The notes below the pieces were generated by a model. It was not told the DNA's origin. It saw only the letters and a program-made list of their open reading frames with translations, and made no database searches. From Bacteroidota bacterium (lineage in GTDB: Bacteria; Bacteroidota; Bacteroidia; Bacteroidales; UBA10428), in assembly GCA_003252385.1 (NCBI GenBank), contig QKEH01000154.1, positions 1 through 54,267 on the forward strand: a stretch of 54,267 nt of DNA, in the 5' to 3' direction. A program made the position numbers and the translations under genes. Of this stretch, positions 3,291 through 30,805 are shown piece by piece; position 1 is the stretch's first letter, and each line of letters opens with the position of its first letter.

Positions 3291-5599
3291 TAGTGCATCA
3301 ACAGGAGTTTAACGATGTGCGACTGGGCACCATCGCTGGTGGCCAGCATAAACAAGTAGATCCCGCTGGCTACGCGTGTACCTTCAAAATTACGACCATC
3401 CCAGATCGCCTGTCCTCCCAGCGAGTTGGTTTCCCAAACCAGATTGCCACTGATATCGGTAATTTTAACCACGGTGTTTTCCATTAAACCGGCTACGGTG
3501 ATCACCCCTTCGTAATTGGGTCGCACCGGGTTGGGATACACATAGGCATGTTCAAAATTTTCGTTTCCCGTGGTGGCAATACCTCCGTAACTGATCAAAC
3601 CCTTATCGGTGGCGAAAAAAACTTCTCCTGTTTTTTCCTGAACACCCACTCCGGTAACCGTGTTTGATAGTAAAGGTGAATTGTCGACATGAAAATTCTT
3701 CAGGGTCTGTTTGCCATCGGCCGAAACCAAATATGCCCCGGAATGTGAAGTGGCCAGCCATTTGCGGTTGCCTCCGTCGCATTCAATATCCTGAATGGCT
3801 TCACTATAAAGTAGGTAATCTACATTGTTCGTCCCATCGTTGCGCGGGTAGGTAGGTTGAATGCCTGTAATAACATCCCTGCTGAAAATGTCCGCTGTGG
3901 CATAATAAATTACAGGACCCAGGTTCGTCCCCACCCAAATATTTCCTTCCCGGTCTTCTTCAAGACAATACACCTGATTGATTAATTTATTATCCTGATT
4001 GATCACTTCAAAAAGTACCTTTTCGAAATCTTCTTCCGAATTTTCCTTTAACACCACCAGACCATTATTTTCGGTGGAAATCCAAATCTGATCGGTACTG
4101 GTTACCATCAGGTCGGTATAGGTGACATTATCCTTATCGAATAGGGAGTTTGAAATTGGAAATCTTTTGAGGTTGCCTTGGGGATCGATCCGGCACAAGG
4201 GTTGGCTGAGCAGGCTCACCACAAACCACAGGTTGCCCTTGGAGTCGTATTCCAATCCTGACACGCGCACTCCTTCATCGGCGGTAAGACTTTCAAATTC
4301 GGGTAAACCAAGGTGTACCGGATGTGTTGCCGATTGTCCGTTCCAATGGGCTATTCCGCTGAGGTAGCTCCCCACATAGGCTTCATTGGGGTTACTGGGA
4401 TTTATGGCAATTTTAAAAGTATTGGTATTGTGGGTTTCGCGCAGAAACAAGTCAGTTCCATAAAGACTGTTCCATACTCCGTCCTGAAAATAGTAGGCCG
4501 AGCCGTTGGAATAACGTTTTTTAATGGTTCCGGACGACACCCAAACCCGATCCTCGGCGGTGAATACCTTGGTCACCTCATTCTCTCGCGGACCGGTTGC
4601 GGTCAGGTACGTGGCCCTCCCCTGGCTGTCGAGCTGTAAAAAGCCCGAATAGTACGTGGCTACATAGGGAACCCCCGTGCGTGAAAGGATTGCATCGCGC
4701 TGGTGAACCATATCGAAACGATAGACCAACTGATTGTTCGTGTTATAGTAAGCCACATCGCGGTATGAACTCACTGCCAGGTAACCGTTATAAGCATGCA
4801 GTCCATACAACAGAGTATCGTAATTCTTGTTCCAGTTCTGATAGGTAGTAGCATTGGCTGTTATCACCCGATCGGCACCGGAGGTGGCATCGTCATACAC
4901 CAGGTAGAGGGCATTATTAAACACCTCGGCCATACGGTACGATTGATGACTTTGGGGAAGATGTTCCAACACCGACCAGTAGGAATAATCCAGCAGGTTC
5001 GGACTGTTCAGACTGGCTGTGTACACCCCTTCTTCAGTGGCGGCGTATATACGTCCTTCAAAGATAGCCACATCGCGTACATCGAGATACCCTCCATTAT
5101 CGCCCAAGTAGTAGGTTTCCATAATTTCCTTTCTTTCCAGGTTTAAGACCACTATCCCAAAACCACAGGCCAGGTAGGCGGCATTACCGTACACGCAAAT
5201 GCTTTGAATGGTTTTATCGGCAGTCATTATCTTGCGTTTGATGTCGGGCAGGTTAATCACATCCTCCCCTTCCCTGAGTAAATCGATATTTCCATTGGCA
5301 TAGCCCACTACCAGGTACCCATACGTTTGGGCATAGGCCAGTGCACTGATGTTAACATCGCTTAGCCCGGTCGCCTTAGAATGCTTTCGTAAATCGCCCG
5401 TGGACGGGTTATAGGACAGCATGCCCGCCTGGGCACTGCAAAAAATCCAATCGCCCGCTTCTTCTACCTTTAACATCCGGGAATAGCACAAGTGATCACG
5501 CCATTCGCCCTGTAACAGATCCACCTGGGCATTCGAAGGTAACCACCACACAGAAAGAGGTAAAGCAAACAGCAAAAGCAGTAATTTTCTCATGGACAT
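3290..5599 (-). CDS. porZ: type IX secretion system protein PorZ
   Basis: A 769-residue exported protein with a Sec signal peptide (MSMRKLLLLLFALPLSVWWLPSNAQ), many beta-propeller blades of the two-component-regulator type (for example WIFCSAQAGMLSYNPSTG and IWVGTNLGPVIYY), and a C-terminal type IX sorting domain of about 80 residues starting near YVYPNPVRPNYEG with the late GIYLFML element. This is the PorZ architecture; PorZ belongs to the cell-surface attachment complex (PorU, V, Q, Z) and delivers anionic lipopolysaccharide to the PorU sortase. The pairing with recO is a familiar Bacteroidota arrangement. No other T9SS gene is in the window. The start could also be the third codon (Met) at 5593. 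Confidence 0.85.
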   Translation of the reverse strand: MSMRKLLLLLFALPLSVWWLPSNAQVDLLQGEWRDHLCYSRMLKVEEAGDWIFCSAQAGMLSYNPSTGDLRKHSKATGLSDVNISALAYAQTYGYLVVGYANGNIDLLREGEDVINLPDIKRKIMTADKTIQSICVYGNAAYLACGFGIVVLNLERKEIMETYYLGDNGGYLDVRDVAIFEGRIYAATEEGVYTASLNSPNLLDYSYWSVLEHLPQSHQSYRMAEVFNNALYLVYDDATSGADRVITANATTYQNWNKNYDTLLYGLHAYNGYLAVSSYRDVAYYNTNNQLVYRFDMVHQRDAILSRTGVPYVATYYSGFLQLDSQGRATYLTATGPRENEVTKVFTAEDRVWVSSGTIKKRYSNGSAYYFQDGVWNSLYGTDLFLRETHNTNTFKIAINPSNPNEAYVGSYLSGIAHWNGQSATHPVHLGLPEFESLTADEGVRVSGLEYDSKGNLWFVVSLLSQPLCRIDPQGNLKRFPISNSLFDKDNVTYTDLMVTSTDQIWISTENNGLVVLKENSEEDFEKVLFEVINQDNKLINQVYCLEEDREGNIWVGTNLGPVIYYATADIFSRDVITGIQPTYPRNDGTNNVDYLLYSEAIQDIECDGGNRKWLATSHSGAYLVSADGKQTLKNFHVDNSPLLSNTVTGVGVQEKTGEVFFATDKGLISYGGIATTGNENFEHAYVYPNPVRPNYEGVITVAGLMENTVVKITDISGNLVWETNSLGGQAIWDGRNFEGTRVASGIYLFMLATSDGAQSHIVKLLLMH

Positions 5600-27956: not shown

Positions 27957-28990
27957 TAACGTGAGTTCGACCTAAGCGTATCGCATTAATAACATGTTGT
28001 CAATGACTTCCAGATTGAGTGACGGTTTCTTTGGGAAAAACGAATAAGCAATAAGCCCGGACAATAGGTTTGTGAGAAAGTTTTCAAAGCTCCTGTGGCG
28101 AGTGTGCTCTATTTGGCAAATGTTCTTGAGTTCATCGTTGATCGATTCAATGATCCCCCTTTTCCTCAAAAGGATCTTGTCATGGATGTGCATTAAACTG
28201 TTTTTCATGTTCTTACGTATTTTTGTAACCAAGTGGATGTCATCGATGAACAGCTGCTCGAATAAGGTTTTGCATATATAGCCCTTGTCGCCGATCAGCT
28301 TACCGAACACTTTTTCATGGAACTTTTTGTTCCTCAACGGCTCCCGGTCGTCCACGTTGCCTTGGGAAAGCATGAAATCTAATATTTCGCCTTTATCGTT
28401 GATTATCAGATGTAATTTGAGTCCAAAGAACCATCCGATCGAACACTACCCCTTGGTGGCGATGCCCTTAAAAACCTTGTTTTGACGCTCCCTTTTGATA
28501 TGGCATGCCCTTAGCGGTGTCGAATCGATGAACAAAACGCCAGTACAGTTGCCCAAGCAGCACGTTTTCAGGAATACAGCCATGGGGACCGCCGCCTTGC
28601 GCTGCAATTCAACGAAGCGGTTGTACGACACCGTCTGTGGGAATTCCCTTTGCAAATGAACTTGCACATAGTTTATATAGAAGTGTTTGAGATTGCGAAA
28701 CTGACCTGCGTGAAAGAAGACAAGGATGGTAATTACCTCGCTGTCCGATAAACAAAACTTGCGGTTTCGAGCCTTTTTGACATTGTAGTTCGATACGACA
28801 TATCCCTCCTTGGCTTTGTCGAATTCAATGCAAAAATCATCAATCATACAGAAAATTTCGGTAAGTTTATCACTAGAAACCATGGGGCTTGTTTTTAGTT
28901 TAAATATTTGTGTATCAAAAGCTTAAATACACTAAAAACACCCCATTTTACATGCTAAAACTCCAAATTTCTTACATCGAACTCACGTTA
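27957..28990 (-). mobile_element. IS982-family insertion sequence (inactive)
   Basis: Perfect 14-bp terminal inverted repeats, TAACGTGAGTTCGA at 27957-27970 and its complement at 28977-28990, bracket a transposase gene of IS982 type; the total of about 1.03 kb fits the family. The true tip may be the inner ACGTGAG, two bases further in on each side. I could not find a matching target duplication in the flanks (CATAAA on the left, ATTTAA on the right), so later change or a recombined end is possible. Confidence 0.85.
27972..28883 (-). pseudogene. IS982-family transposase interrupted by an amber codon
   Basis: The frame from 28883 to 27972 would give 303 residues, the normal length, but codon 146 (28448-28446) is TAG. 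Both sides read well in the same frame: ...FKGIATKG, stop, CSIGWFFGLKLHLIINDKGE. The catalytic triad context is otherwise intact: FIDSTPLRACH, GDKGYICK and RGIIESINDELK. A single base change therefore explains the loss, and the inactivation looks recent unless the amber is suppressed. Gene callers would report two short proteins. Confidence 0.88.
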
Positions 28991-29000
28991 ATTTAAGTAA

Positions 29001-29465
29001 ATGACAAATAGTAATGGTGACTATATAATGAGGCAATTTTTATTGCCAAAGATCGCTTTGCCAATATTTCTATGTCTAGTGTCTCTTATTATAGATTACA
29101 AATCCGATGATTACATTTTTAATAACCTATCAGAATATTACCCGACAATCGTAATATTTGGATCGTGGTATCTTTTTTACTCTTTATTCTTAAGTAAAGT
29201 TGTTATCTCTCAGGATACTATTAACATCTATTATCCTTTTGTTAGTTATTGGAGAAAGAAAACCGTGCTAATATCAGATATAATTGAGTTTCGTATTGTA
29301 ACTTCAGCGTACTTTTCGAGGATGATACTAATACAATCTAAAGATGGTAAAAAACAAAAAATGAACTTAGTTATTATTGGTTTTACCAATGCAGAATTGA
29401 TATTGTTCATTGATAGATTGAGAAACCATTCTAAATTTAAAGCTAATAGAGTTTGTTTGATATAA
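29001..29465 (+). CDS. small membrane protein, hypothetical
   Basis: A 154-residue protein with two hydrophobic segments (LPKIALPIFLCLVSLIIDY and TIVIFGSWYLFYSLFL), then a soluble beta-rich part (VVISQDTINIYYPF, ILIQSKDGKKQKMNLVIIGF) that looks like a PH-type/bPH domain, a helix, and a basic end. It resembles other two-helix plus PH-like proteins of unknown role. The first ATG (29001) lies only 11 bases past the IS982 end, so the native start may be the Met at 29028, or the 5' part may have been altered by the insertion. It is clearly more A/T-rich than the flanking core genes, which suggests transfer. Confidence 0.6.
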   Translation: MTNSNGDYIMRQFLLPKIALPIFLCLVSLIIDYKSDDYIFNNLSEYYPTIVIFGSWYLFYSLFLSKVVISQDTINIYYPFVSYWRKKTVLISDIIEFRIVTSAYFSRMILIQSKDGKKQKMNLVIIGFTNAELILFIDRLRNHSKFKANRVCLI

Positions 29466-29478
29466 ATCTTCGCACCCC

Positions 29479-29509
29479 CCCACGCTTCCGCGCGTTTGTA
29501 ACGCGTGGG
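29479..29509. repeat. REP-like palindrome
   Basis: CCCACGC (29479-29485) pairs with GCGTGGG (29503-29509); inside it CGCGTT (29491-29496) and AACGCG (29500-29505) make a second, competing stem with a three-base loop (TGT). The element resembles the site into which the IS630 element inserted 95 bases further on, so it is probably a member of a dispersed repeat family. It may also act as a terminator for the gene at 29001. Confidence 0.55.
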
Positions 29510-29601
29510 TATTGCAAAAATAAGCACATTAAAACTAATAGTTACTACTAAACATGATTGACAATTGGCACCTTAAATAAAACCCATTGAACCAACACGC
29601 G

Positions 29602-30675
29602 CTAGTGTGAAGATTTGATATTAACCGAACTATTTCTCTTTCTTCCATCATATGTCCATTCAAAAGGTTTAGCCCGTTCTTTGTTGTAGGTGTCTACATA
29701 TTGAATTATTTGTGAAGCCAGCTGTTCTTTACTGTGCCAAACAGCGCCTTTAAGTACATCTTTTGACAATATGTTAAACCAAATTTCCACTTGGTTTAAC
29801 CATGAAGAATAGGTCGGGGTAAAATGTATTGTCATTCGGCGTTTTGAATCTACCCATTTTTTAACATCTTTATGCTTATGAACGTTCAGGTTATCAGCAA
29901 TCACATGAAGTTGTATATTAGGATATTTCCGGTATATTTTCTTCAAAAATTGCAAGAAGTTTTGCGCATTGTTTTTATCAATTGTATCCGCAGTAACTTC
30001 ACCATCACGGACGGATAATGCTGCAATAAGAGATACCGTACCATGCCTCTTGTAAGTAGCTGTTAGGCGTTTGGGATTAACTGATCTCAAGGGTAGTTCA
30101 GGCTGAGAACGATCCAGGGCTTGTATTTGAGTTTTCTCATCTATGGATAATACCAATGCATTTTCCGGAGGGTTCATGTACAACCCAACAACATTAAGCA
30201 TTTTTTCTTCAAATTCCGGATCGGTACTTTTTTCCACACCAGTACTCCACTTTGTGAGGTTTTAGGTCGTGTGATTTAAGAATGCTCTGGACTGTGCTTT
30301 GACTCATCCCGAATTCTTGTGCAATCCTTCGCTGGCTCCAATTAGAATATCCGCCATCAGGTTTTGAGCAAGCCTTCTGCACAACCCTTGCCTTATCCTT
30401 TTCTGTATAAATAAGAGCTTTTCCGGGTCTTGGCGCATCGTTCAAGCCTTCAAGCCCCGACTCTAAGTAACGCCTTTTCCATTTTGCAATGGCTTCCCGT
30501 CCTACTTTGAATTCGTTCTTTATCGAATCGTAACTATGCCCATCATTAAGCATTAAAATTATTTTGGAGCGCACTACGGCTCTGTAGTCTGCACTGCACT
30601 GTGGGCTCTTGACGTGACTATCAAAGTGTTTAGGTCTTCGTCACTGAGCAATATCTTTCTTCCTGTCCTTGCCAT
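29602..30675 (-). pseudogene. IS630-family transposase with two opposite frameshifts
   Basis: The protein can be followed in three pieces. It starts at 30675 with MARTGRKILLSDEDL; at an AAA run (30629-30631) the frame moves to a stretch KHFDSHVKSPQCSADYRAVV that leads into the HTH half (30574-30209, GREAIAKWKRRYLESGLEGL). At an A6 tract (30233-30228) it changes again to the catalytic half, KSTDPEFEEKML (30237-29602). One A missing at the first site and one extra at the second would restore a single frame. All three acidic residues of the DDE core remain: LSIDEKTQ, VIADNLNVHKHK and WLNQVEIWF. It may be a decayed gene, or the A6 tract may allow productive slippage. The TAG stop at 29604-29602 uses the TA of the target plus a flanking base. 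Confidence 0.8.
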
Positions 30676-30719
30676 ATAGTAAAGACACTTTTAATTCGGC
30701 TATTAAACATTCTTTACAC
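29605..30719 (-). mobile_element. IS630-family insertion sequence in a TA target
   Basis: The ends are imperfect inverted repeats: left GTGTGAAGATTTGATATT (29605 on) and right, on the minus strand, GTGTAAAGAATGTTTAATAG (from 30719). They are flanked directly by TA (29603-29604 and 30720-30721), the duplicated target typical of IS630/Tc1 elements. Length is about 1.1 kb, normal for the family. Confidence 0.85.
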
Positions 30720-30805
30720 TAGCGCGGATTTGTAATTCGTGCGACCAAATAGAATATGGAATGCACATTAACACAACAAAAAACAATAAAAACAGAAACA
30801 AATTA

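Follow-up and report, generated by a model that had tools for sequence, protein, structure and literature searches.

Our analysis of the window, which is the whole stretch of DNA examined (54,267 nucleotides), showed that an IS630-family insertion sequence at 29605–30719 is located in a CTAG that forms the 5′ tag of a small hairpin repeat of the REP type. Very probably, an IS630 element with a preference for CTAG hit a CTAG that by coincidence serves as the 5′ tag of this REP, and the hairpin itself was not its target. A CTAG-preferring IS and an unrelated REP with a rare CTAG variant of its tag would then be two things looking like one, and symmetric flanks around an IS need not signal hairpin targeting.

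The element is 1115 bp long, lies on the minus strand and has the termini GTGT...ACAC, one end reading GTGTGAAG... and the other ...CTTTACAC. Comparison of the two ends revealed imperfect terminal inverted repeats of 28 bp, identical at 20 of the 28 positions, and the loci of its relatives, when compared, were of similar length with the same kind of ends. The two copies of the TA target duplication, to which no strand applies, are at 29603–29604 on the left and 30720–30721 on the right, and the sequences outside them are CGCGC (29598–29602) and GCGCG (30722–30726), respectively. Rejoining the flanks without the IS and one TA gives the 12-mer CGCGCTAGCGCG, a perfect palindrome of the form CGCGC-TA-GCGCG. 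The preliminary description had given the same boundaries, flanking TA and rejoined palindrome, and the window sequence bears it out in all of these. Since the first base of the IS is G and its last base is C, both junctions read CTAG, and at CTAG sites a duplicated TA and a duplicated CTAG give the same reading. Data on ISY100, which belongs to the IS630/Tc1/mariner family, favour TA duplication, with cut-and-paste insertion at TA, in the accessible text of PMC2170065. One IS630 relative, L086, has TTAG at both junctions (T-TA-GTGT...ACAT-TA-G), and its base inside the right end tracks the target, which is what duplication of 4 bp (NTAN) would predict; this is a single case, which might also be due to mutation.

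The transposase gene was identified on the minus strand in two parts. The 5′ part (30209–30574, 121 aa as listed among the open reading frames) has HTH domains in Pfam (HTH_28/HTH_32), and the 3′ part (29605–30237) has the DDE_3 catalytic domain (PF13358, E 9e-28). These domains, and the TA that flanks the element on both sides, agree with membership of the IS630 family. In 11 of the 12 relatives read, the transposase is a single frame of 349–379 residues, whereas that of the window copy is split into two frames; in the twelfth (L099) it is also broken. When the window was read by eye, a start of ATG-Ala-Arg resembling that of the relatives was found further upstream, in yet another frame. Programmed frameshifting at the A-run of the transposase was considered and rejected, because 11 of the 12 relatives keep a single open frame there, and decay or sequencing error is therefore likelier. 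The window copy has no intact transposase, which concerns its activity and not its family membership. Because its frames are broken, the copy is probably dead or immobile, unless the frame breaks are assembly errors.

The IS is single-copy in its own genome (3.93 Mb, 97.6% complete). A search of 22 further genomes of the host's taxonomic family did not find it, nor did one of 394 other genomes of the class sample at E ≤ 1e-60; neither a sister copy nor an empty site was found in these 22 and 394 genomes. The nearest relatives found come from genomes of uncultured bacteria; over almost the full length of the query their protein identity reaches at most 75%, and identities of 82–85% extend over fragments of 46–50 residues. 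Judging by the relatives, the host probably belongs to the Bacteroidota. A scan of viral contigs gave one distant relative (46% identity) and a scan of plasmids gave 800 records, 6 at 60–80% and 794 below 60%, all of which were left out of the site counts. To the left of the IS in the window, two adjacent minus-strand ORFs with a DDE_Tnp_1_3 domain, split by a frame break, occupy 27972–28883. They represent another degenerate IS, probably IS982-like, with some 700 bp between it and the IS630 copy. The ORF at 29001–29465 (154 aa) had no Pfam match and no homologue in the 22 other family genomes.

Because this very IS is single-copy in its genome, the comparison of target sites was limited to its relatives. 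In total, 80 relatives' loci were fetched, and 61 of them plus the window, that is 62 of 81 sequences, were examined for ends. Among these, 17 had no readable end pair, one (L079) was a duplicate, and 44 (43 relatives and the window) were counted. One genome is shared by L067, L068, L069 and L120, and another by L071 and L110, but their sites differ. The end-caller used for the site counts, which ignored the base adjoining TA, gave C-TA-G at 40 of the 44 readable non-duplicate sites including the window, and thus in 39 of 43 relatives. Two relatives were misplaced by the caller. Re-reading of L096 gives CTAG at both ends, and L048 has C-TA-GTGT at the left end and, on the right side, letters that end AAC-TA-G. 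With these two re-read, C-TA-G is present in 41 of 43 relatives, and the real exceptions are L086 and L100. For L118, L119 and L124, where the 3′ side alone was used, G follows TA in 3 of 3. This preference for TA in CTAG is that of the IS630 family, as in IS630 itself, and matches the published habit of IS630, the study of Tenzen & Ohtsubo (1991) being entitled "Preferential transposition of an IS630-associated composite transposon to TA in the 5′-CTAG-3′ sequence" as cited in the accessible text of PMC2170065.

Beyond CTAG, no excess of palindromy was found at the sites of the 38 of 43 relatives that have 8 or more flanking bases on each side (the misplaced L048 and L096 included). Complementarity at ±2, 3, 4 and 5 around TA was observed at 13, 13, 5 and 13 of the 38 sites, where a chance of 1 in 4 predicts about 9.5. 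Three of the sites (L053, L056 and L073; about 2.4 expected given CTAG) have a half-palindrome of 3 bases and none has a longer one, whereas the half-palindrome of the window has 5 bases. The fold test covered 31 sites, those of 30 of the 43 relatives and that of the window, one of the 32 listed (L050) having been skipped; RNA energies were used, and the shuffles preserved base composition only. The rejoined flanks of the 30 relatives folded about as well as their shuffles (median z −0.02, with 3 of 30 below −1.64), and the REP pattern given below was found in 0 of these 30 sites. Five of the 43 relatives have a loose core of 7 letters, TTTGNAA or its complement, at a distance of ≤40 bp from the site; three of these five were in the fold set, and no REP pattern was found in them. 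The preliminary description had read the site as an IS630 element at a legible TA within a REP-like element, which stands, and had suggested a preference for TA at the tips of hairpins, which the relatives do not display: nearly all lie in CTAG sites, without the palindrome and, in the 30 folded, without a folding excess or the REP pattern. Copies of the same IS in TA sites without the palindrome had been named there as evidence against the suggestion, and its relatives, at most 75% identical over nearly the full-length query, are found in such sites.

The repeat family is visible only across relatives: when short patterns were searched in this genome alone, the matches were at background, no more numerous than those of the reversed control or close to them in number, except for the two window copies. 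A pattern made from the letters common to the window elements, CACGNNTTACAAANNCGCG, gave 15 matches in 395 phylum-sample genomes (2 of them in the window) versus 2 in the reversed control. The first comparison of the REP was with distant genomes, using the core CGATAGCGCGGATTTGCAATCCGTGCCCGC, and there the repeat often occurs in inverted pairs about 60–120 bp apart. The in-family pattern is the closer one. This pattern, CT[G/C]GCGCGNNTTTGNAANNCGTG / CTNGCGCGNNTTTGNAANNCGTG with ≤2 mismatches, gave 76 matches in 13 of 23 family genomes versus 5 in the reversed control, with 2 copies in the own genome and up to 18 per genome in the family relatives. Of the 76 matches, 43 have G as the third base of the tag, 26 have C, 4 have T and 3 have A. 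The exact tag CTAG is present in 2 of the 76, the window copy and G016:C127:4179; the latter (4179–4201), in a family relative, is a CTAG-tagged REP that matches the pattern uninterrupted.

Columns 9–19 and 10–18 of the REP, which the pattern leaves free, are base-paired in 41 and 46, respectively, of the 48 distinct copies, while the maxima in 1000 shuffles were 32 and 31. Since these inner stem columns covary above shuffles, the hairpin is conserved. Columns 5–23 to 8–20 of the outer stem were near-invariant or no better than shuffles and give no covariation support. A short tag with a hairpin, repeated in the genome, is what characterizes a REP, and the extragenic placement was read in the window only. 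The tag found is CT[G/C]G, rarely CTAG, instead of the canonical 5′ GT[AG]G, and the repeat is therefore not a canonical GTAG REP.

In the window, the REP at the insertion (30719–30742, plus strand) was identified by pattern matches and by covariation in the relatives, and consists of the tag CTAG and the hairpin GCGCGGATTTGTAATTCGTGC (30722–30742). The C of its tag is now the last base of the IS (30719), and the original C is the one at 29602. A second copy, with the tag CTTC and a hairpin (29485–29508, plus strand), was identified by pattern match and fold about 20 bp past the stop of the ORF at 29001–29465. The two REPs have the same orientation and are 117 bp apart with the IS left out. 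The segment 29482–29507 aligns with 30716–30741 at 73%, and the two copies are the only matches to CTNGCGCGNNTTTGNAANNCGTG (≤2 mismatches) in the 3.93-Mb genome, which confirms the likeness of the site to the element at 29479–29509 that had been pointed out before. An insertion point at the exact centre of the palindrome, as also claimed then, was not borne out. As other copies show, the repeat starts with the CTAG-type tag and continues to the right as a single hairpin, and CGCGC precedes the tag in 0 of the 11 CT[C/G]GCGCG copies among those listed; the IS has thus gone in at the 5′ foot of the REP and not at its centre. The CGCGC at 29598–29602 (plus strand), the left half of the 12-bp palindrome, is outside the conserved repeat, as judged from the sequence and the other copies. 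The predicted hairpin at 30722–30742 is wholly on one side of the IS and unbroken, and C30719 restores its tag.

As single-stranded DNA, the uninterrupted second REP folds better than its shuffles (z −2.41; 2 of 200). In the rejoined 40-mer of the insertion site, folded with DNA energies, TA can be part of the 4-nt loop on a small side arm, and this fold was no better than shuffles (z 0.23; 116 of 200 shuffles did as well or better). With RNA energies, the rejoined window 52-mer was no better than shuffles, either (z 0.85). For the interrupted copy, a fold with a three-way junction was set aside, being no better than shuffles.

By analogy with IS630 and ISY100, an IS630-family element (Tc1/mariner-like, DDE) would insert by cut-and-paste at the TA within CTAG and duplicate the TA. 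The CTAG hit in this case would have belonged to a REP as its 5′ tag, where an A variant of the usual CTGG/CTCG tag creates an IS630 site. Given the G at the start of the IS and the C at its end, CTAG is read at both junctions, and the tag and hairpin of the REP are complete on the right side. As no empty site was found, the IS is single-copy and the neighbouring ORF is private within the family, we can only infer the state before the insertion, in which the REP was probably already present; its hairpin most likely had no part in the choice of target.

Targeting of the REP itself, at the tip or centre of its hairpin as in IS1397, ISPsy8 or ISPpu9, would account for the sole IS copy of the genome lying exactly in a REP tag and for the rejoined site being a 12-bp palindrome. 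Targeting of this kind is known from other families (IS3, IS110, IS4, IS256 and IS5), and in the strongest cases all copies are in REPs, according to the accessible text of PMC1525189. However, IS630 is not among the families named in that text (0 occurrences), and no report of IS630 targeting REPs was found among the open-licence papers listed, including the accessible text of PMC2817692. The relatives are in plain CTAG sites, 30 of which folded with neither the REP pattern nor any folding excess, and many REPs are present in the host's family, with no other copy of the IS found in the 23 genomes searched. We therefore consider such targeting very unlikely. The REP pair and the IS might also have arrived together in one foreign island, with the IS older than the locus. 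The stretch is indeed IS-rich and private to this genome, with the broken DDE_Tnp_1_3 transposase and the ORF lacking a family homologue, but this origin is improbable to a high degree, as the REP recurs in 13 of the 23 family genomes while the IS was found in this one only.

If the ends of the IS extended past GTGT...ACAC, for example to CGCGC, the palindrome would be the outer end of the IS itself, and in the window the TA on either side does adjoin GCGC. There is hardly any chance of this, since the relatives have GTGT...ACAC-like ends with unrelated flanks outside CTAG, and since the right-hand GCGCG..TTTGNAA..CGTG is a dispersed repeat that occurs without any IS. The flanks of the relatives refute it, unless close copies differ from them; ends with CGCGC on both sides are what the preliminary description had named as evidence against its own reading. 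Insertion into a CTAG that happened to be a REP tag, the reading we favour, is itself opposed by the perfect 12-bp palindrome, which exceeds the site of every relative, and a chance CTAG leaves the left CGCG unexplained.

Analysis of transposases beside the REPs revealed genes for IS200-like tyrosine transposases of the RAYT type in relatives. Of 22 loci scanned in distant genomes, two (L158 and L159) have the repeat on both sides of an IS200-like transposase gene, and the transposase of L158 matches Y1_Tnp (E 1.1e-9). Within the family, REPs lie ≤250 bp from 6 of the 43 RAYT matches listed (G016:C79, G016:C92, G016:C65, G004:C32, G006:C83 and G003:C219), and at G016:C79, G016:C92 and G004:C32 they flank the RAYT gene on both sides in inverted orientation. 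No such flanking was found in the own genome, which has only a weak RAYT match of 36 residues (E 9.9e-4), and the distant-genome REP motif was not found around either of its two other Y1_Tnp matches. The motifs identified were WQ and YIHNNP in L158, YLHNNP in L193 and L206, and YIHQNT in L195; the HuH motif in these four is SHIH, as in L158, or SHLH, not NH[LIV]H. We also observed a perfect hairpin, AACCCCAGCCTTAAGGCTGGGGTT, unlike the window REP, near a Y1_Tnp match of the own genome (L026 1369–1392, contig C98). At L209, two copies (47 and 981) of a different palindrome, GCGTAGTTTGCAACTACGC, bracket a RAYT-like gene, and this palindrome is possibly another REP family sharing the TTTGCAA core.

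A REP family and its likely transposase were thereby defined in the host's taxonomic family as a by-product. It is conceivable, though in our view doubtful, that the repeat is an undescribed RAYT-associated REP family with a CT[G/C]G tag whose rare CTAG tags are non-disruptive landing sites for a CTAG-specific IS630. If so, the insertion re-creates tag and hairpin, and the REP could remain a substrate for its own transposase.

In the accessible text of PMC6006769, TnpA_REP subclass 2.6 is mostly from Bacteroidetes, is flanked by atypical secondary structures without GT[AG]G, and has the motifs NH[LIV]H, WQ and YIH[QN]NP. The RAYT products are similar to it in WQ and in motifs like YIHNNP/YLHNNP, and in the small flanking hairpins without GT[AG]G that have copies elsewhere in the genome. 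They differ from it in the HuH motif (SHIH/SHLH) and, in L195, in YIHQNT. On these motifs the products appear close to subclass 2.6; we claim no membership, as the HuH differs and the repeats were likened by description and not by sequence.

Like ISPsy8, ISPpu9, ISPa11 and ISRm22 (accessible text of PMC1525189), the IS of the window is located in a REP. Unlike these, of which 4/4 to 10/10 copies are in REPs according to that text, it is represented by one copy, and the REP pattern is present in 0 of the 30 relatives' sites that were folded. In build, it resembles IS630 of Shigella sonnei and the IS630/Tc1/mariner family (ISY100). Unlike them, the copy in the window is probably immobile, as the frame of its transposase is broken. 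It shares with them a DDE transposase with an N-terminal HTH, a length of about 1.1 kb, imperfect terminal repeats and TA on both sides, and, with IS630 itself, insertion at TA within CTAG.
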